From Allacma fusca (Eukaryota; Arthropoda; Collembola; Symphypleona; Sminthuridae), in assembly GCA_947179485.1 (NCBI GenBank), contig OX359246.1, positions 6,014,001 to 6,078,000 on the forward strand: a DNA stretch of 64,000 nt, in the 5' to 3' direction. A program made the position numbers and the translations under genes. This document shows, piece by piece, positions 1 to 41,700 of this stretch. Below the pieces are notes generated by a model, which was not told where the DNA came from, did not search any database, and saw nothing but the letters and a program-made list of their open reading frames with translations. Numbering within the stretch: position 1 is the first letter of the stretch; the number at the start of each line of letters is the position of its first letter.

Positions 1-234
1 TCGTAAGTTTTTATTGATAACCGGGGTTATTATTTCTTGTCCACGGAAGGCAGACGGATTTACCTGCGCTTCACCGACCGATGCCCTGAGGATTTGGGTA
101 TACTCAACGGACAGCCACGGAGCTCAGTACCGTTCCCACCTCATCCAGGAGGAATTTTATATAGTAAATGCACAGTGTTAAGTTTCATATCCATGAACCA
201 CCGTCACGGTACGTACATACATACGTTATAATTT

Positions 235-1848: not shown

Positions 1849-1868
1849 ACCTGTCACCCGCTTCATCA

Positions 1869-4800: not shown

Positions 4801-5660
4801 AATTTGTTTCGGACAATCAGTTAGATTGGGACATATTTGTTCCTTATGTAATTACTGCATATAATACTTCAGAGCATTCAGTTACAAAAATTTCCCCTTT
4901 TCAAGCATTTTTCGGTAGAGCTCCTCCAGCCCCTCTACTCAACTCCATTCCCAATACACTTTTACAAATGACTCAACTCAGCGCTTCTCAGGTCAAAATT
5001 ATGCATCAAAGAATATCCCAGTTAATTAAAAAGGCTCAATTACAAGCCAAAGAACGATTTGATGCTATGTATCAACCCTTAGAGTTTAAAGTTGGTTCCC
5101 ACGTTCGATTTTATCTCCCTCAGCGAAAAATTGGTTTGTCTGACAAACTTCTTTGTCGTTGGGTTGGACCTTACACCATAACTTATATTGATAAAAACAA
5201 TAATGCTGACTTAGTTTTAACCTTTCCCTCTACTAAGCTTAGACCTAGTATTAAGTGTCACCTCTCCCAACTCAAGCTCATAAAAATTGATTTAGGGGAT
5301 GGCATTATTCATCCCGAGTATGTATATACTACGGAAGACCAGCACGAATTTGACGCTTGGTTGACACAATTTCCCTCCGACACCCCAAACTCCGATTCCT
5401 CTCTCCCTTCTCCCATCCGTAAACATTCCACAAGTCCTTCAAGCAAAATGAAACAACAACCGTCCACATCTTCTGAAGACCGTCCAGTTAAGCGTTTAAC
5501 TTCTCCTCCTCCAAACTTCTCGCCTCAAACTTTTGGTTATCACTCCACAAAGCTAAAATCAATTCTCAAATCTCCCCATCAAGTTGATAGCAATCATACA
5601 GTTCGACGTTCCACACGTTTACGAAATAAATCAAAGAAAGTTACATTTTCCCATGTCTGA
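1869..5660 (+). CDS. pol: Pol polyprotein of element A (protease, RT, RNase H, integrase)
   Basis: The frame encodes 1263 residues from its first ATG; functional Pol is probably a Gag-Pol frameshift product. The aspartic protease motif is LIDTGAS near residue 17. The reverse transcriptase has YIDD at about 441-444, and the RNase H has YTDAS at about 588. The integrase has an HHCC zinc domain near 802-842 and a D,D35E triad (YAMDLLGPF near 868, LISDGAAEF near 927, GIVERLNQ near 963), followed by a GPY-like segment. Length and order match intact Ty3/Gypsy Pol. There is no internal stop. The frame ends eight bases past the first ATG of the next frame, typical of compact LTR elements. Confidence 0.92.
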   Translation: MCPYIMCYFDDVSIDALIDTGASHNLIQKNHIPSSAVITPCPQRFVITADKARIPTSHIASLTFQLDNYFYTTEAHVLETLTPPLILGCKFITQFDFHIHLNSNSLYNSHVCHYFRKHAYSATCSSECGCSSPVKTLFTIQLPPRHQMYVPTTPLHTSHTTFFNPHPLIEKQYKVIFPPVINPAKNVLLATNISTSTQIIPANTLLGHAQRYDFTQSLNTAPVIPQNPTPFTPEQLQSLNINPKLRPAERASIISLLNKYSYLFAWTLMDLQVCTLPPMRINLNSATPVQAKPYRLSTTEREILKQELDKLIQAGIIVPCENSNYSTPVFLVRQKLGKWRLVCDFQKLNKITVDEIFPLPRIDDLLFQLRSAAYFSPLDLFSGYYQALIHPDDQHLTAIVTEFGLYMYLRVCFGLKNAPAYFQRLAARTLGTLRYTHAVSYIDDIIPYSKDFPSHLVAIELVFQRLAKVNFRMNPKKCFFGMQEHVVFGFFLSQKGLSTESAKVAAIMEQPKPNNLETLRKFLGTIGYYRRFIWNFAQIAAPLQGLLKKHSLYHWSPDCDKAFLTLKNALCTAPVLRHYDPTLPCILYTDASNLAIAGILHQQFEDGEHPIYFISRALTPAEKNWGATEKECLAVVFATRKLREFLYLKPFIIVTDHHALCYLKCQRNPTARLTRMAVILEQFRYVIRYKKGTLHRNVDGVSRCPYALSTTKDTEDDLTIPGLTAQSPTSSPKPLPPIPLINPADLKHAQAIDHTLNKLLQKKRSKLIPNDDGIYFIQFNPRNPKLLVIPKAMIPIVLQNAHNHPLGGHLNFQRTLARLRPFYWWRSITSDTFKHCTHCPECQSRQHLTKLRMDCLKNIPIKIPASTYAMDLLGPFRETPRGNKYVLVLTDLFTKWVHTSLLPNREAAHIAMHLESFILTFPGMSILISDGAAEFKSATLQELLKRFNITHHVSMPFHPRSHGIVERLNQTLAIMLSKFVSDNQLDWDIFVPYVITAYNTSEHSVTKISPFQAFFGRAPPAPLLNSIPNTLLQMTQLSASQVKIMHQRISQLIKKAQLQAKERFDAMYQPLEFKVGSHVRFYLPQRKIGLSDKLLCRWVGPYTITYIDKNNNADLVLTFPSTKLRPSIKCHLSQLKLIKIDLGDGIIHPEYVYTTEDQHEFDAWLTQFPSDTPNSDSSLPSPIRKHSTSPSSKMKQQPSTSSEDRPVKRLTSPPPNFSPQTFGYHSTKLKSILKSPHQVDSNHTVRRSTRLRNKSKKVTFSHV

Positions 5661-7578
5661 CCACAATGACCAGCAACAATCCCCAGTCCCCGCCTGTGTA
5701 CCCTTATGTGCCAGGCATTGTCCAATACCCGACAACTCTGGGCATCAATCCTGCCATTCGACTCTCCGACAACCCCTGGACGGAATTAATCAAAGTTTAT
5801 CTCCCCGGAACCCCGGACACGCTAATCTGTTGCCCAGTGTCAATTTGCACAGTTCAAATATTTCCCTATCAATTTGCCGACGCGTCTGGGAACGAACTCA
5901 GTTGTTACGACTCCTCAATTCCTATTCTGAAGAGGACCTTCCGCCATGTTGCTGTGGGAATTGTATTGCCGGACCAAATTCCCTCTCTTCTGGACCAGTT
6001 GAGCGCAACTTACTTCCAAGCAACAGTGAAACAATCCCAAATTTGGAACGAGTTTCTCCTTCAACTACGCGACGCCCCACCGAATTACGTCTCAGCGACG
6101 CCCGTTATTTCAATCGATCCGCAAATTCGGTTCGAACAAATATCTCGGGCATGTTTGGAATCAGCCAACATTTGTGCAATCCAAACCCGTCGATCCAATT
6201 GGATCAAGAAGCACGGGCCACGACAAGGCCCTACTCTGACATTGCCTCAACAACTCCTGTCCACAGCTCCACCGGACCCCATACAAAACCCTCTCGCTCA
6301 ACCGCCTCAACAAGGCCCTGTACATATACCTTCACTTCCGAAAGTGACTTCACCGGAAGTGATGACGACAGTCTGCCAAACTCGCCCTCTACCAACTCTG
6401 ACACCCGGCCCCCCGCCAACGACTCATATGATGACTGGTACGACGCATGTCAAGCCGCCGCAGCAATGGACTCCGACGACTGGGACGGTGATCGACCTCA
6501 GACCCCAACCGATAATGGAAACAATACAACTCACTCCTCTCCATCAACCTCACCGAATCTACCCGGAGCTCGTTCTCAACGAACAAGGGGAATTTGTGGA
6601 AGCCCCGTCAACTTTTCAACCCTAATAATTATGATTTTTCTTTTCATTTTCGCCTGTGAAAGTGCTCCACTAGGTATTTGGGGAAGCCTCCCCAACCTAT
6701 CCAAAATCACTGGTGCCGGAACCAAACTCAACATGGCCCGGACCAATTCAATGCATAAGATGGTACCTCTCCAACGGTCAGTCAGTATCCAATCATTACC
6801 TTCCATGGCTCAAAACGGTAACAAAAATTTTAATCTTCCCATGCAGGCTGCACCTGCCAAGAAAAATAATGCAGTCAAAGTTATGGCTGCTGGAGCTGCT
6901 CTTATGGTAGCCCCACCAATTATAAGTAAAATCTTGGATTTTATTCCCTCTCGCTCCAACACCTTCCCCGAAATTCCAAAACCTAACCTGGAAACTCCTC
7001 CTCCTCCTCCGCTCACTCCTTCACCACTCGAACAACGACTCTTGATAAACTCACCAATTACGATTGACGATTATAAAGACGATACTTTAAAGCCTTTCAA
7101 AGATGTTAATAATTATGATGCCAACATAACTCAAATGTTAGAGGAATGGAAATCTATTCATAATTCTTTTCTCAACTTACAGACTAAGCAGGATGAGCCC
7201 GGCCAGACAGTTACTCTTACTACTACCCTCTCTCCGCCTGTCCATGCCAAGCAAACCGGACCGGAGCCCATTCTCCCCGTTCTTCCGATTCCAAAAATGG
7301 AAATTGGCGTTGGCGAGGGAGATTCCCAAGTTCTTCTCCGTATTTTCACTTTGTCAAGTACTGCCCTTTCAACCATTATTGGGTTTGGTTTAATTGTATA
7401 TGGTTTATATTGCTATTACCGGTATCGTCAGCGAAACCGTCAGAACTCCCGAATCTCCCATGCACTCCCCAGCGCGTACTTCATCAATAATCCCCGCCCA
7501 CACAACCATGACCCGTACCCACCCATCGTGGCCCTCAACAATTTATCCAACCAGCTGTCTGCCCGGACTCCAGCCTAG
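5653..7578 (+). CDS. Envelope-like ORF of element A
   Basis: The frame starts with an ATG that overlaps the pol stop and is open for about 641 residues. Two features suggest a membrane glycoprotein. A hydrophobic run with small residues after it (MIFLFIFACESAPLG, from the internal ATG at 6631) reads as a signal peptide. A second hydrophobic segment near 7340-7410 (STIIGFGLIVYGLYCYYRY) is followed by basic residues and reads as a C-terminal anchor with a short tail. An RSQRTR motif just before the first hydrophobic run resembles a furin site, so that run could instead be a fusion peptide. The product may start at 5653 or at 6631. No homology to known Env families was recognised by eye. Confidence 0.5.
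   Translation: MSDHNDQQQSPVPACVPLCARHCPIPDNSGHQSCHSTLRQPLDGINQSLSPRNPGHANLLPSVNLHSSNISLSICRRVWERTQLLRLLNSYSEEDLPPCCCGNCIAGPNSLSSGPVERNLLPSNSETIPNLERVSPSTTRRPTELRLSDARYFNRSANSVRTNISGMFGISQHLCNPNPSIQLDQEARATTRPYSDIASTTPVHSSTGPHTKPSRSTASTRPCTYTFTSESDFTGSDDDSLPNSPSTNSDTRPPANDSYDDWYDACQAAAAMDSDDWDGDRPQTPTDNGNNTTHSSPSTSPNLPGARSQRTRGICGSPVNFSTLIIMIFLFIFACESAPLGIWGSLPNLSKITGAGTKLNMARTNSMHKMVPLQRSVSIQSLPSMAQNGNKNFNLPMQAAPAKKNNAVKVMAAGAALMVAPPIISKILDFIPSRSNTFPEIPKPNLETPPPPPLTPSPLEQRLLINSPITIDDYKDDTLKPFKDVNNYDANITQMLEEWKSIHNSFLNLQTKQDEPGQTVTLTTTLSPPVHAKQTGPEPILPVLPIPKMEIGVGEGDSQVLLRIFTLSSTALSTIIGFGLIVYGLYCYYRYRQRNRQNSRISHALPSAYFINNPRPHNHDPYPPIVALNNLSNQLSARTPA
5666..6625 (+). CDS. ORF3 of element A, unknown function
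   Basis: A 319-residue frame starts six bases after the pol stop. I do not recognise a family. Residues 1-190 look globular, with scattered cysteines and tryptophans (for example LIKVYLPGTPDTLICCPVSI), and the rest is proline- and threonine-rich. No signal peptide or membrane segment is visible. It lies entirely inside a second open frame (5653-7578), so over about 960 bases two frames are open together. It may be an accessory or structural product, or one of the two overlapping frames may be unused. Its position immediately after pol argues that it is real. Confidence 0.55.
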   Translation: MTSNNPQSPPVYPYVPGIVQYPTTLGINPAIRLSDNPWTELIKVYLPGTPDTLICCPVSICTVQIFPYQFADASGNELSCYDSSIPILKRTFRHVAVGIVLPDQIPSLLDQLSATYFQATVKQSQIWNEFLLQLRDAPPNYVSATPVISIDPQIRFEQISRACLESANICAIQTRRSNWIKKHGPRQGPTLTLPQQLLSTAPPDPIQNPLAQPPQQGPVHIPSLPKVTSPEVMTTVCQTRPLPTLTPGPPPTTHMMTGTTHVKPPQQWTPTTGTVIDLRPQPIMETIQLTPLHQPHRIYPELVLNEQGEFVEAPSTFQP

Positions 7579-8421: not shown

Positions 8422-11400
8422 TTTTGAAACTTCATACAGTCAAGGCTATTTGGAATGCTCGGAATACTTTGGAAAGATGTTTTTAAGTAAAATTGAATAT
8501 TTTTTCACAGGACTGGATGATAAAAAATGTATGTGGACGTTTAATAATCATAATTCATTATCGTGGTTAACATTTCACTTACAATTAGTGTTGAGCATTT
8601 GAAAAATCCCTGATCAAAATCAATACACTCTACCATAGAAGCGAAAAATTTATAATAGCAAAATATTATTTTCAAACTTCTAATAATAAGTTTGTAATTA
8701 CTTCTAGTCCGTAAATAACCATGTAATGCACTTGAAACAATTTACCAGTCTTTGTAATTTCAAGAAACCAATTATGAGGAAGATTACATTTAATTCAGAT
8801 CAGCAATAGGGTCATTTAATTATTCCTAACACAAAATCCGTCTCAAAAGTAAATGATTATGCCGAGTGGTATTCACGAACGTCGATTTGTATTTAGATGT
8901 CAATACCCCACTGCTAAAAAATTCATCAACTGATAGAACAACCAGATTCAAAGTTCATATGTAAATGTCATGTATACATGGTTGGCCATTTTGGGAAGGC
9001 ATTTTCAATTCTTGACATTTTAGGCATTTATGACTATTTGGACATTGATAGCGTGAGGTATTTGCAAAATTTTAGACGTTCTGAAAATTAATATTATTAA
9101 AACATTATTACTTGATACACTAGATCGCTATTGCAATAATTATTACTTTGAGACAATTTTGCAAAAAAAGTGGGCTATTATGTGTTATATGTAAATGAAT
9201 ACACATATACATACTTCTGGCCATCGTTCTTTATACGGATAAGGTAATACTCATAACTCATAAGATATTGTCAAGTAGACTGAGAACGACAATTATCAAA
9301 ATGCCAACATTTTAGTTGCCCCAAATTGACATGGAGTTTTCAAGCGACCAACACTAAATTGTACTGCTGACATGATTGATTCTAAATTAATAACAATTGG
9401 ATGTAACTTATTATACAGACCTCGTATCGGAGCCTTTCCCTCCGGAAAGCATTATTAAGATGTCGACAAAACGAGAAGAACCAATTAGGCTTCGTATGAT
9501 GTACCCTTTTGTATGCAAAATCTCCACCTTCGTTCTCTTGCCCAACATCCAGTTTGTGCTTGGTTTTGAAAATGGCGTCGAAAAACTTGGTACTTTCGTT
9601 TGTTTTGGCGATGTGCTAACCCTGTGATATGCTGTGAAAACCTTTTGCTTTCCACTTTTGATGTCAAGATTAAAATCAGAACAACTTCAGGAATATTGGG
9701 ACATTATTCTAAACAAATCTTGCTTATTAAGCTGATAGTACCTTATAGAACAACAATATGAATTGAATTTTGTTTATTTCAAGGGTGTACTTGTTGAAAA
9801 ATCCTGCAGATCGGATCGACTAAACATCTTGTATCCACATTATCAATTATTAAGCTCATGGAGTATTTCATTGTCCCACTTTGTTCTAATGCGTATAATT
9901 TTTATTTCCAAATCTAAAACTGTTTTACTAACCCAGATTAGAAATTTTGGTTACGGTAAAATATATAAGCAATATCTGAATTTAGCCAATTTTTTGATAT
10001 AATTTTCCGGCAAACACATTTAATTTCTAGTGGGGGAGGGGGGGGGGAAATTCCATCCGACCTCCCGTCTGGTCTCGATTATCAAACAGGATAATTTTAC
10101 TGCCCCCATCCCGTTCTTATCCCCCGTTCTTATTACCCACAGGCAGGGGTCGGATTTTTGTAAATCTCCCTGGTAGATCATTTCTGAATTTCCCTGCTGA
10201 ATCTTATGTCCCTGCAGGGAGGTCCTCAATGATTTCAAAAATCACTGGTGAATAAAGGTCACCGATTTTCAAAATCCCTATTGGCAATAAAGATTGCAGT
10301 AGTTCCAATCCCTGCCGAATATGGTTAACCAATTTAAAAAACCCGTTTGCATAACGAATCTTTAAATTTAAACGAAATATTCCTTAATATTTTCCATTCT
10401 TTTGCTTCGAGGGACTAAAAAGCAAGTGAGAGATAGTTTGCACAATGGAGAAAACATATTTTTAAAAACGATTTTTTGAGGAATGAATGTTTTCTTAAAA
10501 TGTATTTATAATTTTTGGAATCTACGGCTTCCATAAAACGTCTAATAAACAATCATCATTGACGTCCATCAGATTCTTGTTGGATTGTTAAATTATTTAA
10601 CCTTCCTTAATTTTCCTCAATAATTGATTTGGTTCTTCTACAACTGACTCAAAACCGGTGGAAATTCCTTATGCAAATTTCCAAGAATATCCGAGGGATG
10701 CCCCCAAGCTAAACAAATTTATTATAATGCTTTTATCAATTATTTAAGTTTTTCTTAATTAATTAAAGTTGACCTTATTCATTATTTTATGCATGTACTA
10801 TTTGATTCGGAATGTTATTGGCAGTCAGTAATCAAGACACTGAAGCTGTTATTGATAATTCTACTCGGATAACAAATACCGCAACCCTCACCTGGCAGTT
10901 GCATTTGAGAATCACAGATGGTTTGAACAAAATTACTTGTTATGCTCCACGAATAAATTCCAGTGACTGGGTCAAATCTGAACTCAATATAAACATTACT
11001 ACTGGTAAGTACATACTTGAATTATTATTAGTTTCGTTAGCGACAGCATGTCATAAAAAATAGGCCCCTTCCTTGTTTTAATAGATCCAATAATAAATTC
11101 TACTGACTGGAACGAATCCGGAGTGAACGTAATTGTTGCAACGAGTAAGTTTACTTTTTGTAAAACAATTTCGATTAAATCATCTCAAAATATATGATGA
11201 TAATAAAATATTTTGCTGGCGATACAATCGTTCAACTTAAAAGTACGAATTCCAGATTCATCTCCTAATCCAATTATAAGTTACTGTACCTCGGAGACTG
11301 ATTCTCTCTCCGTTTTACAAGAGTGCAATTTCACCAGAATCAGCAACTCCACTTTTGATTTTGGGAAAATTGATCAGAACGTAATCCAAATGGAATCAAA

Positions 11401-14400
11401 GTCTGGACCGCAGTTCGTGTTCCTGAAATGTGAAGCTCTGTATCCCATCAGGTGGATGGCACCGAAACCATTGGTAAGAAAGTATTTTTTTTAGCTTGTG
11501 GGTGTATTTCCAAACATCACGTCGGTGCTCAGATTTCCATAAACCGACGATATTTTTTAAATTTTCCTGCTGAATCTGATGTACTTGAAAGTTCAAAAAT
11601 CACTGTTGACAAATGTTTATCCCTACGGGCCCTACCAGACGTCTATATATTTGAAAAAATCTGCTAAAAAGTGACAAAATCAAAAGCAAATACTAAAATC
11701 CCTATTTACAGAACAAGTATCCCCAAAAGACATCAATAGTTTTGAAAGGGAAACCAATTACAAAATCATTGTTCACCAAAACATTTCGCTTCCCTTTCAT
11801 AAATTTATTTTCTGTAGGAAAAATCTTCTGGTCTTCCTATAAAATTGCGACCCTCTGGCACACCAGAATTTGCTTACTCGGGTTCAATTTTCCTGAACCT
11901 ATACCCACATAAAATCGGGGTTACATATATACCAGAATAGTACCGGTACCCAAAGGCGTATGTGCAACCGAATATGTCTTAAAACCATATCCCTGGTATA
12001 TTCAAACGATTTAGCTAAATTAAAAAATTATCCGGTATATGGCACGAAATGAAAAAAAACAGTTGTGACAAGAAGGTAACTTACCTGTCTTACATTTATT
12101 TTGACGTGTTATTCCTTGCAAAGAGAAACGATACTGGAATCCACAATCATCAAAAACAGCCTGACACGATCAAACATTCCCGCCGTAGGCAATCGTATTT
12201 TGATAGTTCTAGTACGCACTTATTAGCCGTACTATGAATACAGTAAAATTTTGGTAGTTTTTTCACATGCCAAGTAGAGGGCGATGGCCCTTTTTCTTGG
12301 AAATCCTTATTAACTTGGAAGTACATACCTGAATGTTTGATGTACTTTCGGTTCACGTGCAAGTATTCAAATTTGTGCATACCGATACGTAATGGGTTAT
12401 TTATACCCGAAAATTGGATTTTATACAAGAACACATACCTAAACCTGGATCTAAATTTACCTGTATCAAGCGATTTAGCCCTAAGTTAGTACTCAAATCG
12501 GATGTGTGCAAAAATATTGTACTTAACACGCACACGTACCTGTAATAATTATTATTCAAATGCCCGCGTAAACCCTGTACCCAGGAAGCGAACTAATTAA
12601 AACCAACTTAACCTTGCAGTTGAACCAACTACTTCAGGTGAATTAAAACTAAAACCTTCTTTGTAATATGTGCATATACAGGGATCAATTCAATACCTAG
12701 CCACAAACGAAACCAAGCGATTTCATCACGATCCTCTGAGCAAACCAATTTTTAATATCTACAGTCAAGTAGTCCTGATAAATTTGGGGGAAGACTTCAG
12801 CAGAAAAATGCGTTGTGAAAGCTACTCAACTTTAATGAATGCTGCCGAAGTCTTCATCAATGTCAATAGTTATGGAGATGCTTATAAAGACGTCTGGGAT
12901 TTTTCTTTAGATACCACCACGTTTTTTGTTGTGGATGAAATGCAAAGAAATTCCAATGTTTTCATTATTCCTGCATTGGCAAAGGAATTTCGAGGGAATT
13001 ACACCATCCCAGTGACCAAAAGTGACCATTCTGGGAAGGTATGATGTAGTATATATGTAGTTTTGAAGAACTGGAATATCTCTAATAGTTCAATTGTTTT
13101 TGAATGCAGCAACTGAAGGAATTGGATGATAAATGTGCAGAGTGCATTTGTAGAGCAAGTTCTCGTTGCAAAATATTTCCCTGCAACTCTGACAAAGTTT
13201 GCGGATACATATCTCCTGCCTACCGCGGTGACACACAAGACCAAGGTAAATATAAATATACACTAAATGTCTATATACTTATAGATATTATTAGGTAAGC
13301 CAGTAGTCTTAATGTTGAGTGATGATTTTCCCTTTTGCATTTAAGAATTTTCAAGCTGTATGAGACAGGAGGTTTGCGCCCGAGGTTTAATTAAAAATTA
13401 CTATTATGAATCGAGACGTGGAGGAGATTTATATGACTGTAACAAAGATGGGATATTGAGCTGTGAAGATTACTTTTGGCTACACTTGAAGTACAATGAC
13501 AAGCAATGCCCTACTTTGAATTTCTCAGGAACAGAAAATAAAATTATTTTAACCGAGTGTTTGGTCAAGGTGTGTCCTTTTATTAAAAGATGAACATGCC
13601 AATTCGACTATTACAGCTTAAACCTCTCAATTCCTCCAGCTTCTTAAAACTTTTCAACGCTTGCTTGTTAGTTGCCTATGTCTTAGTCTTAGGTTTAAGA
13701 ACAGTAGACTTTATAGTAAAACTGTCAATTGCTTTGAATTTTTTGAGACAGAATAAACTAACTTTCACCCGGCTAAGGAATCAACCGGGTGATTATGATC
13801 CGCGAATAGGCCTAAAGGTGGATGAATTGCCGGATCCTAATTTTAAATATGAATTTAATATTCCTTGGGATCTCGAATACACTGGGTCTTTGATACTAAA
13901 ACCACTTAAACAAGGTAAGGTATTCCAGTAAATATGATCCAAGGATTTCACGTTTTCATTAAATGTATTTGGCTGATATGCAAAATGTCAGGAAGTTTTA
14001 CTGCATATTTTGTTTATTTGTAAACAAAATAATTGTTTCACAATTTAGAAAATTCGGCATTGCAAAGAGAAATTATAAGATTATTTAAATGTATTTTTAT
14101 TTGAGAGGAAATATATTCAGCAAAAATGACGACCCTAGGAAGGGCAACAAATCTGAAAAATGTTTATCTCCCATGTATTTTCTTCGACTTTGTCTATGAA
14201 TACAGTACATCAATACAATATTGAGTACATTTATATGGACTTTTAGCAAATTTGAATTGTTACTTAAAAATTCGCGTCAACTTTTGGTAAAGATATTTTT
14301 TTCGGAATTTAATATTTAACATTTTAGATTTTACAGAGGAACCCCTTCAAAAACGGAGCTAAATAATTTCAGGGTCAATTTAGACCAAAAAATGCAATAT

Positions 14401-17400
14401 TCAAAATCGCTACCACCAGGTTCGGTAGAAATTGAACCTTTCACAAGATGGTTCAAATTGATAACCCCTATCTATCTCATTAGTACCCATAGGTCAGTTT
14501 GTATATGACAGAGGGGGCACTATTGCCGTAATTTAAAACACAAATTTATAAAAACAAGTGCATAACCATGATAAACTATTTAAATAATACTATTTTGACA
14601 TACCGATTTCAAAAGTTTTCAGCAGAAAACAAATTTTTTAAACTTCTTAAACTCACATTTTTGGATTATCTTTCACTCAATAGGATCTCCATGAAACATG
14701 CTACATTGCCAGTGTTTTCAATTTTTTTTAGAATGGATAAATTGGATTTTGAAAAATATCATGTCCCAAAATGTTTCAGTCTCTAAATCTCTTGTTTATT
14801 TTTAGACCTGATACTTAACTATTCCATTTCATGCATCAGATGCTCGTGCCTATAAATTTCAACGTAGAGACCTATAAAATAACTTCCAGAAAATTCCGAT
14901 GTCTAGTCTACATGACGCATCTCATAAACTTCAAACAAAATTTTTGCTTTTTGTGTAGCAAATTATACAATCAAAATTAGTAAAATTTTCCGATCTTGCT
15001 GCATGTTTCTAAACGATGCGACTGCAAAATTAGCTTAGGTCAATTAATCAGATTTTTAAAAATGTAGGAAGCTTTTACAACAAGGTGTCATAGGTTATTC
15101 CCTATTATGGACTTAAACATAATTAAGGAAAATGTTTTGAAACACCTTTTGTGTGGGATTTAACTACACGCCCAAATAATTCTTTCCACGTCAAATCAGG
15201 TTAAAATTCCGACAAATATTTGACGGACCGATGTGTGGAGTTGCAGTACGATATCCATTTATTTTGAGAAATATGGAATCCTAGTATCACTGGAAAATAC
15301 AGTTTGGTGGTGTGGAGTAAATAATAATTCGGAATAATTTTAAATTATATTCTACTGCTTTATCCACAGCTAGCAGAATTTCCGCGAATTTATACTTTGA
15401 TAAGATAACGGACCTGATTTACTGTGAGATTACAACTCCGGGGACTTATCCTCAACCAAACCTTTTAGTAGGAAGGTGCGCATCATTTGCTGAATGTCAA
15501 CTGAAATTCGATCATTTATGGCCTGCTGTAAGCTCAAATGATGTTCAAATAGTTCATAATTATAATTATTATTGAATATTATATATAAATATTGTAAATT
15601 TTTAGCAATTTGGAATAGCTTGAAAGTATTTTACAATAGTGAGCTAATAACTAACCAGTCCTGCACGAACACTGCACGTATCGAAGCAGCATGCTACTTA
15701 ACTTGCTAACGTTTACTTTTATTTATTTGGATTGTGTAGATTCCTGGTGTTGGCTTCAATAAATTGCTTCACCAGGTCGAGGAATTCGCACCATCGGATA
15801 AAAAATTTCGTAAATCGTAAGAAATTAGAAATATATTATAATTAAAAAATAGTTACAAACCTGTTGCGATTTTTCCGATAAGACAGAAGACAACACGAAA
15901 CTCGGTCGATTATATATCGAACTATATGTTGCCTATATAGCTACCCAAAAATATTTATAAATATAACAAAGAGAATTAAGTATTATTCAGTAGTACAGCG
16001 CGCTCACCCACGCCAGTAAAGAAAAACCTTTTGTGGACAAATCATCTTTGTACGTAAGAACATACGTAGTCTGTTTAGTTGGTTATATTACAATGTATTT
16101 TAAATGAACGAGTAGATGATGCACAAATTGCACATGCTTAAATTATGAGTGTTAACGTTTTTAAAATTTCAGCAAACACAAGCGTTTTGCTGACTAATAA
16201 TCAATGCTCACTGGTATATTCATAAGTATATTATTGTATTTATATAATAATAATGTCGCGTCGCCCGTTAGAGAATTAGAACGTACTGCTGATCCCAGAT
16301 GTTTGCTCTCCAGAATTGTTGCTGTTATTCAGTACTAGTACGTCATAATTATAATGGAGGTTTTTTGTCAGTTTCGGGTCCACCACGTACAGTCAAGGTT
16401 ATCTACAATGTGATGGTGTTTATAAACCTGGACATCAATTTTTATTGAAAACCGACTATTTTTTCACAGGACTGGACAACACAAGACGTAAGTGTATTGT
16501 GCAAGTTGTAGCGGCAAAGGCCAGGGGTCAGATTTAGAAAATCCCTGCTTATATACGTTCAACAAATTTTAAAAATCATTGTCACAAAAAAAATCGATTC
16601 CCATTGAAATTTTCCCAGGAAGAAATCTTTTTTCCTTAGAAGAATCTAGCCTTCTTCCTACGGAAATTCGACCCCTGACTAATATGCCAAATCGACAAAG
16701 AAATTATCTATGTGCATATCTGTGTCTATTGTGGTAAATGACGAAAACGTATTTTAGTATTTTATAAACTGCACAATGTCTTATTTGTTATTAAAATTTT
16801 CTGAATTGAACTTCTTTTTTAGATCTTCTGTCGAATAATTTCCCTTCGGAAAGTATTATTAAGATGTCGAGTACACACGAGCAGCCATTGAAAGAAGGGA
16901 TGAAGTACTCTTTCGATTGCACAATCTCCACATTCGTTCTCCTTCCCAACATCGAGTTTACGCTTGGTTTTGAAAATGGAAATGTACAACTTGGTAAATT
17001 AATAATGCCTTATGTTCTACACTTTTGTCATATTATTTATTATAAAAACACTTTATTATTTACTTTCCTCACTGGTATGGGATATTGTTCGAACAAAATC
17101 CCTTTAAGAAAACTTATTGCTTGTTTTTATGACAACAGTTAACTATGTATGTATGTATGCACGAATTTTATTCTTCTGGGGCTACGTTTATTGGATATTG
17201 AATTGCGTTTAACAATGCTGGTTTGAGTATTTCTAAAGAGCGCTTGTATGTACAGGGTGACTTAAAAATAATTCTCTTAGCCATTAATGGTTTGACTCAT
17301 TGACGCTTGTTTTAATCCTGCTTTTAGCAAATTTAGTCTTGATTTTTGAAAGCCTGTATTACTCACCTAGCATATCTGTTAGCAAGGGATAAAAGCGGAA

Positions 17401-20400
17401 AGTAAACTTGGAATATCCTTAGAATTTCATAGTTGTCACTTTTTATATCGGGTGAAACATTTCGCGAATATAATTGAAATATGCATGATTTTGTATGAAT
17501 ATAAAAAATCCAAGAAACCCTTTAAACATTCTCACTTTGTTTCACGTATTTCACCTTCGTGATCTCAATGACGTAACGCCGTATACGAATGGAACTCGCC
17601 AAGGGTACTCGGAGAGATGTTTTGCACCACCCTGTACATACACGTTGTCGTAGATTTTCAATTATAATTCCATAAAAAAGTAATTATTGATAAGTATTTT
17701 TATCATTATTACAGTTTTTCATATTATTTTCACACCGAACTTTGTGAAGATCATTTGAACGCAACACTAATAATAGAAATTATATTTATAAGCTCCTTGT
17801 TCCCAGATTATCGTATTGTTTCGAATTTTAGTAACAGTTATCAGCCAAACGTCTGAAGCTTCTGTGAGCAACGCTGCAAAAATAACAAAAACCTCAACCC
17901 TCACCTGGCAGTTAAAATTGACAGCTAGAGTCGGTTTAAACAAAATCACGTGCTTTGCACCGATAATAAATTCCAGCGACTGGGCTCAATCCGAAAGCAA
18001 TATAAAAGTTGCGTCTGGTAAGCTACCAGTAAAACTATTCAAAATGAAACAATTGAACATACACCTAAAATGTTGTATCATGTATGACTAAATAACTGAG
18101 GTAACGATAAAACTCATTTAATTTCGATTTCGATTTATTCATAGACCTGTTGAACTGGTACATCAAAATTGGTGGAGTAATCGCTGGAGTTATTATTGTT
18201 AATATCGCAGTACTCATTGTTTTCGTAGCGAGAAGAAAAGTTGCAGTAAGTTTTCAAAATATTCATACAAAACAATAACATAAAGTTATTTAGACAAACA
18301 TTGCGTGCTGACCGTAGCAATGACGATAATAGAAAAAAACGATCTGTCAATGCGGCTTGTTTGTTTTATTTGTGTTTTCAAATGTTTTTGCCGTAACTAC
18401 GCACGGGTTAATCATTCTTAACGCAAACTGATCGTATAGTATTACTATTAACAATCGTCAAATTGGCAGAAGTTTTACCGCAGGTTTTAAGATTGTGATT
18501 AAAACTTGTGTTCTGGGTAATGTCAAAGGTCTGTATCACGACTCTATGAGAGCATTTTGCAAAAAACGTATTAGTACTTTCCAAAATATGGGGACGTTAA
18601 CTGCCAATTATATAGCACCAAATCTCCAAAATAATTGACACTACAAGCTTATTGATTATTTACAGTGAAATGCACTTACATCTAATTTGGATACTAAACT
18701 GCATATTTTTCATTCATTCATCTAATTATCTGGCTTCCTTTTTCAATACTAGAATTTAAACAGCGTGTGTTCTCTGCATATATTTTGTGTTAATTGACCG
18801 GATATCGCAGGTTGTAGACAAGACAATACCTCCGGAAGAAGTAGACAAATTTATTTTAGGCATTGCCGTTACGAATTCAGATCAAGGTGAACGCATGGCT
18901 GCAGAATATATGGCTTTCAAACCGGAATTGATAGTTTCCAGTCAAGAATTATTCAAAGGTCTATTTAAAATTTAAAAAACAAAGTAAAATGTCCATTAAT
19001 TATGTGAATTATTTTGTTGTGATGCAAAAAACATTGGAAATACTGCACTGTAAAATACATGTGTTTTTTTCTTTGCACGTAGATAACAAGGTCCTTGGCT
19101 CCGGTAATTTTGGAATCGTCTACAAGGGAGAGTACAAAAATCAGACGGTGGCTATAAAATCGTGTAAGCCAAAAGCAGATCGGGAATATTTCAAGGCATT
19201 CCTCAAGGAAATCAAAGTGATGGCATTCCTTGGTGATCACGAAAATATTATCAAGTTCTTCGGAGCCGTTATTGATGAACTACCTAAAGGCAATTCAAAA
19301 TATCAATAGTATATACGGCTTTTAATCAACAATAATAATTGTAACAACTGCAGTGCGATTAGTAGCTATTAATATTAATGTAACCGGCTGATGATCCAAT
19401 AGGTAAGTGCGAGGCGGTGATTGAATTTAGTCCGCTTGGAAACCTTCAAAACTATTTACGAAAGCACTCTAACCAAAACACTGTTGAATCCAGCAAAGTT
19501 AATCGACTTTTAAGGTGAAAAAGTAATTTGTAGAATAACAATTTGAAATATTAGTTTAACGCGCATTAATTCTCAATGTATTGTTTCATTGTAGTGAAGA
19601 AATGGAACTTCAGGACACCCTTCAACTTCCGGTTCTTTTGCATTTTTGCAAGCAAATAGCAAGCGGGATGCGATTTTTGGCAGAGAAGAATGTTTGTTGT
19701 TACTAAATAATATCTGATTATATATTATGTATATATCCGATTTCGAACGCAGTGTTCACTACTGGAAGACTAGTGTTCTTGTCAAGCTAACCGCAATTAC
19801 TGATTGAACTGGCAAGCTCGGTTAAATTGCTGTTATTTTACACCAGGGAAATACAATTGTCAGCGCAAGTGTAATTTCTGTTTACTTAAATTGCAATTAT
19901 AAAAGCATTAATTACTAGAAATTACCTGTTAATCACAACTGAAGTTTCAAGAAATTCAATTGCAATTACAAATGCTTGCACTACAAAAAGTTGCAATTTT
20001 AAAAATACTTATCAAGCTAACTGCAACTTGCAATCGTTTGAAATTTGAGCGCAAAATTCCGCAAAATGCCTCAATTAACACGGTCCGCTCTATTAACTAA
20101 TGCACATAACCATCACGAGTATTGTCTCAACGAGCGTAATTACTGTACTGACTACAATTTCGACTGTGAGGAGACAAATTGATCTAACAATAAGTGAATT
20201 TTCGATTAGCATCAAACTTTTCCAATTTAGATAAATTTATAGAAATACAGGCCAAATATTTGAAGGATTGTAATGAAGCAAGGATGAAATTTCATTTGTG
20301 CTTCTCTGTTTACTTATGCATTGCATCCGGATCGTTTTGTTTAATATACTTTGTTCATTTGAGGGAAACAACATTGCATGTATATAATTTTTCTACCAAA

Positions 20401-21782
20401 TAAAAATTCACTGGTAATTTTTCCTCTTCGCCGACGATTTATAGTGTATATCAGTTAACTTGCAATTACAAATTGCAATTGCACTAGCAATTGTACTTAT
20501 CGGTGCAATTACATCCAAATGTTTTTACAATTGCCTTACCAACTGCACGTAACTTATGAACTAATTGCAAGTTCAACTTCAGTTATTTGCATGATCGAAT
20601 TATTATATTACTGGTACTTGCATTATCAATTATAATTGTAACTGCAAGTTCGGGTATTCTCAATACTTGCAAAGCCAGAAACGCTACGACAGACATATAG
20701 TTTAATAATCTGCACCTGTAAATGGACATTAGGGGCATTTCAGGCCCCAATTTGAAACCTATTATTACTGAGCGTTTATGTTCAATATTTATATTTTGTT
20801 GAATAAATATTTGAATAAGCCATATACGTTGATCTAATGAACTTAACGTATTTACTCAAGCAAGAACTTAAGTGTCTTAGATCATATTCTATAAATAGGC
20901 TAAAATTCGGATCACCTGTGTTAAGCTTACAAGCAAACTTTAAAGAATTATTTGATGGGAGGTTGGGATACACTTCATATTAGTGTGGTATCGTGGTATT
21001 GCATATTCTTGTTACTTTATTTGTTTACAGGTAATACACGGGGATTTAGCCACTAGAAATGTACTTGTCTTTCATAGTCAAGTTGTGAAGATCACAGATT
21101 TTGGACTCTCCAAAAAATTGTATGCAGATCCGAATTTCAAAATGGATAGCAAGGTAAATCAATATTAACTTTTAATCAAAAGGTGTTTTCTAATTCCAAA
21201 TATATACCTCATAAATTTGGCTGTGAGATTCTTTTATTTTAGATGCATTGTTACAATGTGTGATTATTCGAACCTGCAGGTACCCTTACCCTGGGCTTGG
21301 ATGGCATTGGAATCCCTTTGTTTTTTTGAATACTCAACACAATCCGACGTATGGAGCTTTGGGGTCACAATGTGGGAAATATTTTCCATGGGTCGGACTC
21401 CATTTTATGGTATAAGACCAAATGATTATACAAATCAACTGCAAGCTGGATTGCGACTTCCAAAACCTACGTTAGCATCTGAAGACATGTATGAGTAAAT
21501 ACTGCACTATATATACTAGCAAGTATCACATGGATTCCTTTCCAATTTAAATATTCTAGAACCGGTCCACTAACGGGTTTTACTAATAAATGAGCAAAAT
21601 TATGAGGATACATTCCAACGACTGATAATTCTAGCTCTTCTAATTTGTCTTCTTTTTGTATATTGTGTATTTAAAGATACAACTTCATTCTAACGTGCTG
21701 GGAAAATAATCCTCATGATAGACCTGAGTTCTCGAAGTGCGAGGCATTTATTTCGTCGGTAGAACTAGGACCACAAGAATGA
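8422..21782 (+). CDS. Receptor gene A: Ig-like, i-type lysozyme-like and tyrosine kinase domains (5' end outside window)
   Basis: This is a spliced membrane receptor, VEGFR/PDGFR-like in its ectodomain style. Exons: 8422-8528, 9419-9589, 10825-11004, 11085-11144, 11256-11473, 12682-13038, 13110-13245, 13346-13569, 13752-13914, 15370-15527, 15740-15816, 16372-16487, 16823-16993, 17832-18017, 18145-18245, 18811-18958, 19083-19289, 19403-19514, 19595-19691, 21031-21153, 21280-21494, 21677-21782. Joined they give about 1143 residues without a stop, ending in TGA. The first visible exon starts inside a codon in the phase left by exon 15740-15816, so further units probably lie upstream of element A. 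All splice sites are GT..AG except a likely GC donor after 19289. It is probably functional, because 22 exons stay in phase. Confidence 0.8.
8529..9418 (+). other. Gene A intron c-d
   Basis: There is no gene here. The intron resembles the equivalent gene B intron (58809-60033) in several stretches, such as AAGCGAAAAATTTATA and the AATAAGTTTG region. The two receptor copies therefore arose by duplication of genomic DNA, not through mRNA. Confidence 0.6.
9590..10824 (+). other. Gene A intron d-e with a CAGGGGTCGG-type repeat
   Basis: No coding exon is visible. A G-run lies at about 10033-10049. A segment beginning CAGGGGTCGGATTT at 10144 matches the end of the hAT-like element at 24521 and contains pieces such as CCCTGCTGAA and CCCTGCAGGGA. 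Its right end was not found, so I treat it as a decayed copy. Confidence 0.45.
11085..13038 (+). other. Gene A exons f, g, h: linker and receptor-type Ig-like region
   Basis: The short exon 11085-11144 is a linker. Exon 11256-11473 contains FLKCEALYPIRWMAPKP, like the B and C strands of the first Ig domain of VEGFR/PDGFR-type receptors. Exon 12682-13038 contains SRKMRCESYS, like an F strand, and then a beta-rich segment (FIIPALAKEFRGNYTIPVT). The same pair is found in gene B at 38642-39449 and 63101-64000, and as a relic at 38135-38510. The fold assignment is inference from the Cys and Trp pattern. Confidence 0.6.
11474..12681 (+). other. Gene A intron g-h
   Basis: No exon is visible. Segments at 11560-11730 (CTGTTGACAAATGTTT, AAATCCCTATTTACAGAACA) and 12535-12600 match one arm of the palindrome in the homologous gene B intron. 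Scattered ACCTGTACC-like words suggest decayed copies of the short elements described below. Confidence 0.45.
13110..13569 (+). other. Gene A invertebrate-type lysozyme (destabilase-like) domain, two exons
   Basis: Exons 13110-13245 and 13346-13569 encode about 120 residues with the cysteine framework of i-type lysozymes: CAECICRASSRC, then CNSDKVCG, then CMRQEVCA, LIKNYYY, DCNKDGILSCEDY, LH, and a final C and EC. The DCNKDGILSCED stretch (13435-13470) also has EF-hand-loop spacing, as in arthropod i-type lysozymes. At the position of the catalytic Glu of bivalve enzymes (CxCxxES) codon 13158-13160 is Ser. An Asp remains three residues after the next Cys. The usual aromatic stretch after CG is shortened. 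The domain is therefore probably non-catalytic. It lies between Ig-like exons, in frame with the kinase. Confidence 0.85.
13752..15816 (+). other. Gene A exons k, a, b: second receptor-type Ig-like region
   Basis: Exon 13752-13914 carries YDPRIGLKVDELPD, a YDP-G motif reminiscent of the start of the second Ig domain in VEGFR-like receptors. Exon 15370-15527 holds two cysteine pairs (LIYCEITTPGTYPQP and GRCASFAECQLKF). Exon 15740-15816 is basic and hydrophilic at its end. All three recur in gene B (53353-53515, 58015-58172, 58439-58515) with identical lengths of 163, 158 and 77 bases. Confidence 0.6.
13915..15369 (+). other. Gene A intron k-a
   Basis: This 1.45-kb AT-rich intron contains no exon, repeat end or RNA gene that I can support. 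Confidence 0.4.
15817..16371 (+). other. Gene A intron b-c
   Basis: There is no coding signal. It corresponds in position to the intron that holds element A upstream. Confidence 0.4.
16522..16677 (+). repeat. Short CAGGGGTC-ended repeat in gene A intron
   Basis: It starts CAGGGGTCAGATTT and ends AAATTCGACCCCTG, so the ends are inverted repeats related to the element at 24521. It contains AAATCCCTGCTT. No flanking 8-bp duplication is seen, so it is probably an old or truncated copy. Confidence 0.55.
16994..17831 (+). other. Gene A intron d'-e'
   Basis: I see no gene. The intron is AT-rich without a recognisable repeat. Confidence 0.35.
18145..18245 (+). other. Gene A transmembrane exon
   Basis: One exon encodes a hydrophobic helix (VIAGVIIVNIAVLIVFV) followed by the stop-transfer run ARRKVA. 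This places the Ig and lysozyme domains outside the cell and the kinase inside. No equivalent exon of gene B is within the window. Confidence 0.85.
18246..18810 (+). other. Gene A intron between transmembrane and juxtamembrane exons
   Basis: I see no coding or repeat feature. Confidence 0.35.
18811..18958 (+). other. Gene A juxtamembrane exon
   Basis: This exon gives 49 residues, acidic and hydrophilic (TIPPEEVDKFILG near its start), and ends in phase 1 into the kinase exon. One Tyr is visible (AAEYMAF). A decayed equivalent is recognisable in the pseudogene near 34650-34705. Confidence 0.6.
19083..21782 (+). other. Gene A tyrosine kinase domain (six exons)
   Basis: Visible motifs are the glycine loop GSGNFGIVYKG, VAIK with Lys at 19157-19159, a helix-C Glu (FLKEIKVM), catalytic loop HGDLATRN (21037 on), DFG at 21097-21105, DVWSFGVTMWEI, and CWENNPHDRPEF near the end. 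These residues suggest an active kinase. HGD replaces the common HRD, the APE triplet is ALE (WMALESL), and there is no long kinase insert. The protein stops about 15 residues after the RPEF motif, so there is no C-terminal phosphotyrosine tail. The intron after 19289 must use a GC donor to stay in frame. Confidence 0.9.
19692..21030 (+). repeat. Gene A kinase intron with a TTGCAATTAC-rich repeat
   Basis: From about 19790 to 20660 the words TTGCAATTAC, GCAATTGCA and GCAAGTT recur in both orientations, clustered near the two ends with an AT-rich centre. This is the organisation of the short hAT-like elements elsewhere in the window, but I could not find terminal repeats or a target duplication. 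Confidence 0.4.
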
Positions 21783-27177: not shown

Positions 27178-27234
27178 GGTTGTGATAAATTGAAGATTAA
27201 CACACACTGATTAAAAAAATTATTGTTGTCGTAT

Positions 27235-31989: not shown

Positions 31990-33120
31990 GTAAAAATACA
32001 AAGGGTGTTTATTTACAAATAGCCGCAAGGTATTCTAACGATTTTTTTAATTGAAAGCTTCGAAGTATGAATATTTATTCAAATCCGAGGTCTTTCATGA
32101 AAAATCGTAAACTACCATCATCCATACCTCAAGATAAAAGGGAATTATTAAAAAACTTTTGTTCAAAGTGCATTCATTGTTCTAGCTCTGCTGTAATACA
32201 GGGTGCCGTTTTTAAAGTTTGAGAGAGCAAAAACCGTCCCAACAATGCTTTGTGGCTGCAAAACAACTATCTGTAAATGGGAGAAATCCACAGATTTTAT
32301 TTTATAAATTGTGCTTGTGAAGAAATCCAGCCAATTGGCAAACGTTTTGCAATTACTTAAAGTGTGAAGGGGTAATGAAATTAATTAGTTAATTAAATTG
32401 GTTTACTCTCGTCGTGTAGATGCATTTAACGGGATGTAATTATATCCTCTTGATCAGCTTAAGCCAGTAAAATTCTAAAAGCTTGTGTCACTTGGAAAGG
32501 TTTGTTATTTTCAAATCCCGGATTAGTCCGAAAATTATGGAGGAAGATCCCAAATTGGACAGAGACTGTTACCCGAAACCCCAAAAATCGAAAAGCATGC
32601 GCTCCAAGTTTTACAACTTCTTTGATTTTATCCCTAATTCTAAAGATTGAAGAACCAGTAAATGGCTTAAAACGATTTTATTTTCTATTTTCATTTATTC
32701 AATTGGAAATTAGAAATTTCATATGATTTTTACCGGACGCTGGTGAAATTAGTAGATTGAATTAGATTCTAACTGAATTTTAATAAAATAAATATATAAA
32801 ATAATTTAATAGTCTCTTATGACTGTTCAGTTAACGTGGTGATAAAACGGTAAATTAATTATTTCCAAGGTCGTGTACTTAGATTAATTACAACTGCTGA
32901 TCGCAGGTAGCAATTGACGAGTGGAAACTTGAAATGACGAATGCTCTTTTTAAATAATTTAAAAATTAACAAATTTATTTAAATATACCAGCAAAACGGA
33001 AATGGCTTTCGCTTTGATTCAGTCCATGCTAGTGTTTAGTTGCTATGAATTAGATTTTGATTATGTTGTTTCATGCGAATAGTAATAACGGAATTAAATG
33101 TTTTTTACAAACCTTTATTG
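31990..33120. other. Intergenic region, nothing recognised
   Basis: This is AT-rich sequence. I see no gene, RNA or repeat end that I can support. Confidence 0.35.
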
Positions 33121-38134: not shown

Positions 38135-38510
38135 TTTGCTAACTGTCCATCCCTGAAACAAACCGGCTAGATCAGGATCCCCTGAGGAAAGCCAAATCGA
38201 AAGTCCACAAATAAGCCCTATCTACAGATATATGGAAAGCGGTTTAACTGAAAATTATGATGCTAAAGCTATTCATTCCCAACGACTGCTGCAAAGAATT
38301 TATCAACGTCACAGTTCCACGAAGTGATTGCAAAGACGATAGGGACCATATTACGGGGTATACATGTAGTATATACTCAAATAATTTCCTCTTGGATGTA
38401 ATGGACAAAATTACTAGTGGTTTCATTATCCCTGCTTTGGCAAACAAATTTCAAGGAAATGACGTCATGCTAGCCCGCCAAACTCACCGCAAAGACTGGA
38501 TAAAGATTAG
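38135..38510 (+). pseudogene. Decayed copy of receptor exon h
   Basis: The end of exon h is readable (SGFIIPALANKFQGND, compare GVIIPAMAKEFQGNY at 39390-39425). Upstream the similarity continues at DNA level through GAATTTATCAACGTCAC back to about 38140, with frame breaks. It lies just before gene B and shows a further lost receptor unit. Confidence 0.65.
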
Positions 38511-38641: not shown

Positions 38642-38731
38642 ATGAAAAGTTTCCTATGGAATTTTTTGAACATATTTGGACTTCAATTTGGTTTTTATTT
38701 GATTTCGTTGAACTTATTTGTACGAATTCAG
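38642..38731 (+). other. Putative signal peptide of gene B made from former intron sequence
   Basis: The 30 residues from the ATG (MKSFLWNFLNIFGLQFGFYL onward) are hydrophobic and run without a splice into exon g. The aligned positions in gene A and in the second gene B unit are intron ending in AATTCCAG. Here the old acceptor region reads through in frame. This may be a newly gained start, or chance. Confidence 0.45.
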
Positions 38732-41700
38732 GGTTCATCTAGAAATCCCACAATAAGTTACTGTACTTCAGATACGGATTCCCTCTGGATTTTAAGAGAA
38801 TGTCCTTTCACTATAATCAGCAACTCTACATTCGCGTTTGGGAAAATTGATCAAAACGTAGTCCAGCTGATCTCAGAAATTGACCCGGCGTTCGTATTTA
38901 TAAAATGTGAAGCATCCTATCCCATTCGGTGGCTCGCATCGAAACCCTTGGTAAGAAAGTTATTGAACTTCACAATGAGTAATGCATATTCTTAGACATA
39001 CGCATCCAGTTAATTTAGAGAAATGAAAGTGTTCCCCGAGAGGTATGTTTTGAAATCACTGCAATCTCTTTCTTGACTCCATGTTCACACAGGGAACAGT
39101 TTACTACCTCTCCACCCACGATACGAACCGGCATGATCAAAATCCCATCAACAAAACCATTTCGAATATCTACACACAAGTCCTATTTGTAAATACAGAG
39201 AAGAGATTTAGCCCAAAATTACGTTGCGAAAGCTACTCATCCTCAACAATTGCTGCAGAAGTGTTCATTAATGTCATTGATCAAGAGAATAAATTTAAAG
39301 ACGTGTGGAATTATGATCCGAATTACTCAAACTATTTTGTCGTTGATAAATTAGACATAAAATCTGGTGGTGTTATTATTCCTGCTATGGCAAAAGAATT
39401 TCAAGGAAATTACGTCATCCCAGTCACTAAAAGTAACCGCAAAAAACAGGTATGGAGTTGTCATTTGTAAGAACTGAATTAGCTCTAAATCATTTATTTT
39501 AACATGTAGCTACTGAAGACAGTGGATGATGAATGTGCGAATTGTATCTGTAAAGCAACCTCTCCCTGCGAGCATTTTCCCTGTAGCTCTGACAAAGTTT
39601 GTGGAGACATGCCTCAGCAGTATTATGGTGCCGGAGGTTGGGTATATTCTAGTTAGATATTATGATAATTATTATAGAACACGTCAAATCAAACTAGAGT
39701 AAGCCGATTCCGTTTTCTTGCAGGATTTGATAATTGTGATGGGGATGTGATTTGCACCCAAGGAATAATCAAAAAATATTATTCTAAATTACGGTGGGGA
39801 GGAGCGAAGTATGACTGCAACAAAGATGGAATATTGAGCTGCGAAGATTTCTTTTTGTTACACTTTAAGTACAACAACGACCAATGTCCTCCTTTGAATT
39901 TCTCTGGAACAAACAATACCACCACTTTGGCAGAATGTTTGCGTGAGGTATGTATTTTTTTCCAAAAACGTGACTAAATCGCATAATCGTCTTATAAAAA
40001 CTGAAAACAGCTCGAAAATTGCAGCATTTGGCGGAATATAAATTAATATGAAACCAATCAGCTGTAATTTATTTGCATGGTGATTTACGAAATAAATGTA
40101 AATTAAATACACAATTTCCGATTTATGATGTGGTAACATGAATATACTAAAATCCCGCTTAATTATGTTGTAATGCAAGTATATATGTACATTGATATAT
40201 TATTTTGTATATACAAATGAATATCAATTGTAACGCATACAATTTATCACATATTCGGTTTAACATTTAAACTATAAGTATATAGAAATTCCAATATCAA
40301 TTATCTATACCAGTACATTTGTAAGAGCGCCTCCTGGCTGTGACAATCGTCCTTATTACAATGCCGGATATTCGAAAATTATAATAGTTCTCCAGATAGA
40401 CAAACGAGACCCAAATGGAATCGGTGCAGCTTGCCCAAATGCTTATTGCCATGTTAGATCTCTTGAGACGATGTACCAGTTGTTGTATTGTCGACGGGGT
40501 CATTCTGTGTTTACTAGTAAGATTAAACTACAGAGAGATGTATAATAGTGAAATAACCAAACCAAACCCTCAATTTACTAAACTGGATTTGCGTTGGTTT
40601 CGAAACATTTGTCCATCCAACCTGAATATAGGCCGGACATGTAACTCCCATTTTAAAGCCATTTATTTGCTTGTTTATACGAATTTAAGCAATATTATGA
40701 GACAATTGTTTTTTCAAATATGATTTGACTCTAGCTTCCAATCAGGAGCAAGGTCGGTCAAATCGTAATAGAAGCGAAGTGAATAGCTGAAATGGTCTAG
40801 TAAATCATTTTACCAAACATTATATACTGAGGCTATATTATTATGTTTCAAACTTTTATAATTGAACAATCCTTGAGGCTTTTCGTTTGAGAGTAAATCG
40901 AGGAATAGGAGGACAAAAATTTGCAAAAGATATCTAATATGTGAAATAAGGTGAGGAATTTAGAAAGTGTTAATACGTTTAATGGAATTTGTAACGATGG
41001 GAGCAAGTATCCAGCAATCGTTGATTTGGGACACTTATCGTTATTCGGAACATGTGACACTTATGGTCGTTCGGGGATACTCGATTTGAGATACCAAGTA
41101 CAATCCAAAGCACCAGTTGCCATTTCAAATAACATCCGATCAGAATTACGTACCAGCCGAATTATTCGTGAGCTCAAGGGGATTTTAAATCGAATATTGT
41201 TAATAACTTCAGAAGATGTTACATCATTCTATTGTACACGTGCTGTGCTGTAGGTTTCTGAATTAGTTTTTTCAAGAAATGTTTGCATTGTCTTAATTTT
41301 GAATTCGTTCTGCGATTCTGGCAGGTAATACAAGGTAGTGGCATACATGAGCACCCTCACGAGGAAATGAGGGATGCCTCGCCCTCTCCCTCGTCCTCGC
41401 CCTCACAAACTGCGAGAGTGATGGCGAGTACACGTTGATTTGGCGCCCTCATGAACATGAGGGAGAGGACCTATGAAGAGGATGTGAACGAAAGAGGGGG
41501 AGGCAGAGTGCACATGTAACCCCTCATGACCTTCGCTTACCTTAATCGTTATGCGAAAATCATACATATTGTTAACCGATATCTGGTTTCTTAACACTCA
41601 ATAAATGTAACGTTAACATTAATGTACATATATGTACTGTTAAGATGTAAAGTTTTCATGGAAAAAGTGTTAGGTACTTACTTTAACCTAATATTATTGG

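Follow-up and report, generated by a model that had tools for sequence, protein, structure and literature searches.

A lysozyme-type domain in the ectodomain of predicted receptor tyrosine kinases of the springtail Allacma fusca

Receptor tyrosine kinases (RTKs) of the PDGFR/VEGFR type are the closest kinase relatives of the receptors described in this work and share with them a single transmembrane segment, while the receptors described here differ in having no recognised Ig domain, a lysozyme or DM9 module, and HGD in place of the HRD motif. Plant lectin and LysM receptor kinases likewise combine a kinase with a sugar-binding ectodomain, a likeness which implies no common descent; they are Ser/Thr kinases and carry other domains. 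The earlier note on this DNA had stated that its author knew of no described kinase receptor with a lysozyme-like domain, and in the open-access literature we too found no RTK with a destabilase or DM9 domain; to our knowledge, no animal RTK with either domain is known. Insect PGRP-LC has a fold unrelated to the lysozyme domain and no kinase domain, and acts in the Imd pathway.

The closest working analogy for the possible mode of action of the receptors is still PGRP-LC, described as a wall-degrading fold without active-site residues which has turned peptidoglycan receptor (PMC3616906). The same source reports twelve conserved cysteines and non-conserved catalytic residues for planthopper i-type lysozymes (PMC3616906), and the catalytic pair of leech destabilase is given as Glu34/Asp46 (PMC10126035). 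Ligands of DM9 proteins are known in molluscs: for oyster CgDM9CP-1 they are LPS, peptidoglycan, mannan and beta-glucan (PMC5712788), this protein consisting of two DM9 domains only and having no kinase, and CGL1 is a mannose lectin (PMC4932603). In the passages searched, the Folsomia genome paper (PMC5490193) and a natterin paper (PMC8402412) contain nothing bearing on such receptors.

Gene A and its lysozyme exons

Allacma fusca is a globular springtail (class Collembola) with a published assembly of 392.8 Mb (PMC10427803); the genome searched measures 392.74 Mb. The window, i.e. the whole stretch of DNA analysed here, has a length of 64,000 nucleotides (C8:6014001-6078000). Gene A is composed of 29 exons, seven upstream of the window and 22 inside it. 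Its start Met, followed by a hydrophobic leader, is at L015:1260 (C8:6005260) and its stop codon at window positions 21780-21782, and the 1615 codons of the frame are uninterrupted by a stop (1615 amino acids). The 22-exon model of the earlier note agrees with this count inside the window, but not with the gene as a whole, which starts about 8.7 kb to the left. All introns are GT-AG except for one GC donor after 19289. The protein is made of a leader, two ectodomain units, one transmembrane segment and a PDGFR/VEGFR-like kinase, the leader and the transmembrane segment (both judged by eye) being in frame with the kinase as in a receptor. The ectodomain is a tandem duplication in which each unit has the order N1, N2, lysozyme, e5, e6, e7, e8, e9, e10; gene A consequently carries two lysozyme domains, one per unit, the first of them left of the window. 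Unit 1 lies mostly outside the window and ends at 11004, a linker mini-exon follows, and unit 2 occupies 11256-18017. An interpretation of the two units as independent adjacent genes was rejected because of the shared exon order and the single open frame.

Exons of gene A in the window, from the splice model unless another basis is given:
8422..8528, + strand, unit 1 e8, ectodomain exon of an unnamed module (tandem counterpart at 16372-16487)
9419..9589, + strand, unit 1 e9
10825..11004, + strand, unit 1 e10
11085..11144, + strand, inter-unit linker mini-exon, its reading resembling the end of e10
11256..11473, + strand, unit 2 N1 (an exon which in other genes carries the start Met and leader as well)
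12682..13038, + strand, unit 2 N2, called Ig-like in the earlier note, Ig not confirmed
13110..13245, + strand, LYZ1, lysozyme-domain exon, phase 0 in and phase 1 out
13346..13569, + strand, LYZ2, lysozyme-domain exon holding DCNKDGILSCEDY, phase 1 in and phase 0 out
13752..13914, + strand, unit 2 e5, start placed as in the copy at 53353 and in database proteins P0001 and P0002
15370..15527, + strand, unit 2 e6
15740..15816, + strand, unit 2 e7
16372..16487, + strand, unit 2 e8
16823..16993, + strand, unit 2 e9
17832..18017, + strand, unit 2 e10
18145..18245, + strand, transmembrane exon (hydrophobic stretch, by eye)
18811..18958, + strand, juxtamembrane exon
19083..19289, + strand, kinase K1 with glycine loop, VAIK lysine and the GC donor (motif reading)
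19403..19514, + strand, kinase K2 (splice model, kinase profile)
19595..19691, + strand, kinase K3 (splice model, kinase profile)
21031..21153, + strand, kinase K4 with IHGDLATRN and DFG (motif reading)
21280..21494, + strand, kinase K5 (splice model, kinase profile)
21677..21782, + strand, kinase K6, to the stop codon

An LTR retroelement, by eye of the Gypsy type, is inserted in unit 1 in the intron separating e7 from e8 and has a gag-like, a pol-like and a third frame, the last ending near a hydrophobic stretch (232-1848, 1593-5660 and 5557-7578; whole element 232-7578). Downstream of the gene, a 652 amino acid open frame on the minus strand (25252-27210) appears transposon-like by eye.

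The two lysozyme exons are found at the place where the earlier note had put them, have GT-AG ends, and sit between N2 and e5 as a module which is of phase 0 at both ends and has an internal phase-1 intron. Spliced together they encode 121 amino acids matching the Pfam Destabilase family of i-type lysozymes (PF05497) with 44.2 bits (E 2.7e-11), the curated cut-off being 26.2 bits. In a 971 amino acid model of unit 2 plus kinase, Destabilase scores 40.5 bits and PK_Tyr_Ser-Thr 262.2 bits, and two distant copies of the receptor, G and H, also exceed the Destabilase cut-off (42.8 and 48.9 bits). When a profile of nine lysozyme rows was compared with the PDB, the best four matches were the lysozymes 3ab6, 4pj2, 2dqa and 8bbu (E 1.5e-4 to 1.5e-3). 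The i-type cysteine framework recognised in the earlier note is borne out by twelve cysteines invariant in nine of nine aligned copies. Recurrence of the two-exon module with the same neighbouring exons across the gene family argues against a chance arrangement. Predicted from sequence, the insertion of a lysozyme-type domain into the ectodomain of an RTK, as first proposed in that note, is strongly supported by the single frame over 29 exons, by copies with matching exon ends and by purifying selection, both described below.

A candidate exon at 13617-13751 with a hydrophobic reading was rejected, since the copy at 53353, the other copies and the database proteins all begin at the equivalent of NKLTF. 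The DCNKDGILSCED segment resembles an EF-hand loop by eye, and weak EF-hand chains appear in the PDB profile search.

The kinase of gene A has the features of an RTK: beside the profile match, a glycine loop, VAIK, HGD with the catalytic Asp, and DFG are present. Among solved chains, those closest to it are PDGFR-alpha, FLT3, VEGFR2 and KIT; that an EGFR chain ranks first is due to the summing of two kinase copies. The HRD arginine is replaced by Gly in all eight kinases read; HGD might be likened to the "non-RD" sign of immune kinases, which is only an analogy drawn from plants. The exons called Ig-like in the earlier note did not hold up as such by sequence, since none of nine N1+N2 rows has a Pfam Ig match and none appears in the PDB profile searches; the several ectodomain Ig domains typical of the PDGFR/VEGFR class are, by the same comparison, not recognised.

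Gene B and the receptor family in the genome

A second receptor gene, gene B, starts downstream of gene A in the window, its frame being open across 13 exons from 38732. To the right of the window gene B continues with a second lysozyme domain and then the kinase, the two units B1 and B2 being inferred to form one gene.

Exons of gene B in the window, from the splice model:
38642..38950, + strand, first exon with start Met, leader and N1
39093..39449, + strand, unit 1 N2
39510..39636, + strand, unit 1 LYZ1 (also codon analysis)
39724..39947, + strand, unit 1 LYZ2 (also codon analysis)
53353-53515, 58015-58172, 58439-58515, 58702-58808, 60034-60204, 62666-62845, 62926-62991, 63101-63318 and from 63942 onwards, + strand, nine ectodomain exons

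The gene B kinase (L016) reads KITGFG where KITDFG is expected and may be a pseudokinase. A second element, Gypsy-like by eye with two long overlapping frames, is found at 42242-49509 in the intron between LYZ2 and e5 of gene B. Between the two genes lies a decayed receptor copy (33085-35338) with e5 and kinase exons interrupted by stops. Upstream of the first exon of both gene A (L015:849-1233) and gene B (window 38143-38460) a decayed N2-like exon is present, which was probably copied along with the genes.

A search of the whole genome with the Destabilase profile gave 13 rows, nine at receptor places and four in two loci near C8:37.59 Mb; these two loci have no receptor exons in the 6-7 kb around them and are hence called stand-alone lysozymes. 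With the lysozyme domain of locus F as query, 33 rows were obtained at E up to 10, of which 28 were taken, representing 15 places, and five were left out (C5, C9, C1, C8:46.9 Mb and C8:30.3 Mb; E 0.19 to 1.55). Loci G and H are weak with this query (E 0.004 to 0.70) and were kept because they are above the cut-off in the Pfam search. Fourteen places are on C8 and one is on C10. All 15 start 58-217 bases past a match to N2, that of a fragment at C8:6112904 having only E 1.67. In 12 of them K1 follows 2.8-8.2 kb downstream on the same strand; the other three are A1 and B1, the first units of the two-unit genes (25 and 31 kb to K1), and the fragment, whose nearest K1 is 84 kb off. Four loci (C, D, E, F) are genes of one unit whose N1 exon contains the start Met and hydrophobic leader; the N1 exons of A1 and B1 contain these too. 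Searched exon by exon for the kinase, the genome gave at least 141 matches, with 120 of 565 candidates scored, and is therefore rich in related kinase exons.

Exon ends were compared between loci A1, B2, C, D, E, F, G and H with same-phase sites only, phase being no independent evidence there (in genes A and B it was read directly). Acceptor and donor of LYZ2 are at the exact corresponding base in all eight. The LYZ1 acceptor is exact in six of eight and 9 bases off in G and H, and its donor is exact in B2, E and F but shifted by 6 bases in C, D, G and H and by 9 in A1 (site 3411). In the 16-row tree of N1+N2, B2 is the partner of A and B1 that of A1, which indicates that the units were duplicated before genes A and B separated.

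Selection was estimated with an MG+F3X4 codon model with one omega and no transition bias. Omega is 0.48 for the lysozyme domain (8 sequences; lnL -2041.0 free versus -2057.6 at omega 1), 0.46 for N2 (8 sequences; -2240.5 versus -2263.6) and 0.15 for K1 (6 copies; -811.9 versus -861.1). The lysozyme domain is under purifying selection and kept as protein, with an omega roughly threefold the value of the kinase exon.

The homologue searches depend on shared exact words of five residues. Under this limit, the full-receptor alignment found 15 proteins, seven belonging to Allacma and the other eight being unrelated kinases, the gene A region two proteins, both of Allacma, and the lysozyme-domain alignment none.

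Catalytic residues, DM9 repeats and the slot after N2

Catalytic positions were read by alignment to 3ab6 and by motif in ten units, which are all of the 15 places except the fragment and I, J, K and L. The catalytic Glu is absent in all ten, being replaced by Ser, Thr or Lys, and the Asp position is D in five units, E in two, K in two and S in one. The loss of the Glu makes enzyme action unlikely, and does not thereby make binding unlikely. Both stand-alone lysozyme loci have a Ser at the Glu position.

The receptor domain shares with i-type lysozymes and destabilase the profile, the twelve cysteines and the place of a phase-1 intron; in distinction to them it sits inside a receptor and the catalytic Glu is absent. 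In the stand-alone lysozyme L021 this intron is located just before FEDC, which by eye is the place of the LYZ1/LYZ2 intron before FSSC, and a further intron precedes DCNGDG, which the receptor module does not have. The common position speaks for an origin of the module by exon shuffling from a lysozyme gene of the same animal, and for the same reason horizontal transfer of the domain was judged unlikely. In the stand-alone i-type lysozyme locus (L021:3520-3790) the lysozyme domain is preceded in frame by a long glutamine-rich stretch.

About 19 further places in the genome match N1 or N2 (E below 0.06) and have no lysozyme match. Four of these paralogues were examined, and three (M, N and Q) have DM9 repeats between N2 and the match to e5/e6, so that the slot is occupied there by repeats of the kind present in the oyster proteins CgDM9CP-1 and CGL1.

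DM9-slot loci (Pfam; L032, L033 and L035 are the DM9-slot paralogues):
M, C8:62.01 Mb
N, C8:63.06 Mb
Q, on C66

All five DM9 pieces are above the cut-off (32.8 to 80.0 bits versus 26.2). In these putative DM9 receptors kinase matches are present downstream on the same strand, at about 7 kb in M and N and about 17 kb in Q. Complete phase-0 candidate splice sites surround both DM9 exons in M only; N has a phase-0 donor and no acceptor within the stretch listed, and in Q one DM9 exon is interrupted by an in-frame stop while the other changes frame. In the fourth paralogue, O, and in the proteins P0005 and P0007 the slot is a degenerate cysteine-bearing stretch with no Pfam match, which points to decay of the domain in some lineages. 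In the 16-row N1+N2 tree the DM9 rows cluster together, with support 98/94, amid the lysozyme-bearing lineages; rooted at the midpoint only, the tree suggests that the lysozyme domain came first in the slot.

Possible function of the receptors

Sequence comparison leads us to a reading held with about even confidence: the lysozyme fold may serve as a non-enzymatic binding domain of an RTK, with microbial glycans as the most likely ligands and signalling resembling that of a pattern-recognition receptor. The slot after N2 would be the ligand-binding part, its ligands would be peptidoglycan, chitin-type or other microbial sugars, and a multivalent microbial surface would activate the kinase by bringing receptors together. 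The DM9 repeats of three paralogous loci lend indirect support to glycan binding, and tandem copies, a slot of variable content and an ectodomain changing faster than the constrained kinase exon would fit a set of sensors with one signalling output.

The main rival to microbial glycans is a host protein as ligand. It is quite possible, if less probable, that the genes encode ordinary, lineage-expanded receptors of the growth-factor type (PDGFR/VEGFR group), in which the lysozyme domain is a disulfide-rich structural or host-protein-binding module and has no microbial role. The kinase relationships given above agree with this, and so do the loss of the catalytic Glu in the ten units read and the slot that has degenerated in O, P0005 and P0007. 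Against it speak the occupation of the slot by DM9 repeats at three paralogous loci, the many copies and the faster change of the ectodomain.

It is improbable that the architecture is wrong or decayed, either because the RNA skips the lysozyme exons or because the locus is a pseudogene. The idea draws on the decayed copy between the genes, on the altered DFG of gene B, and on the public gene models. P0001, a database protein of Allacma fusca which is 100% identical to gene A over the stretch compared, and P0002 both skip about 48-50 residues of LYZ2 and most of K1, including the ATP-binding loop and the VAIK lysine; the cut P0001 scores 18.1 bits for Destabilase, which is under the cut-off, and P0002 to P0007 have no Destabilase match at E up to 0.01. 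Some of the cuts in P0001 and P0002 may be real splice forms. Both models, however, retain LYZ1 and the two ends of LYZ2 in frame with the kinase, and over the omitted piece of LYZ2 the proteins of A and B1 share 71% identity, with a pairwise dN/dS of 0.17 over 48 codons (0.34 for the whole lysozyme domain). Together with the low omega of K1, these values argue for the full LYZ2 and K1 exons as the main form; the 1615 open codons of gene A also speak against a wrong or decayed architecture. Since automatic models can bring the domain under the limit of detection, genomes of other species may conceal receptors of a similar build. The database protein P0007 (635 amino acids) has the same ectodomain and no kinase match, and could be a secreted form or an annotation fragment.

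A membrane-tethered active lysozyme cutting bacterial walls, with the kinase reporting the cutting, would agree with the kept cysteine frame and the Asp of five units, but as a muramidase it was rejected and is hardly credible, with no unit of the ten retaining the Glu of the leech pair Glu34/Asp46 (PMC10126035).

Extending the reading of the lysozyme fold as a binding domain for microbial glycans to the whole family, we propose tentatively, and with somewhat less than even confidence, that these receptors could be a lineage-specific RTK repertoire of pattern-recognition receptors, in which a phase-0 slot swaps sugar-binding modules (dead lysozyme, DM9) ahead of a constrained kinase without the HRD arginine, as an animal counterpart of the plant lectin receptor kinases. 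The family also illustrates how modules are exchanged at a single slot defined by introns, the lysozyme module sharing its intron position with the animal's own lysozyme gene. If microbes are indeed what the receptors sense, a hexapod lineage other than the insects would have coupled the direct sensing of microbes to a kinase of the growth-factor type.
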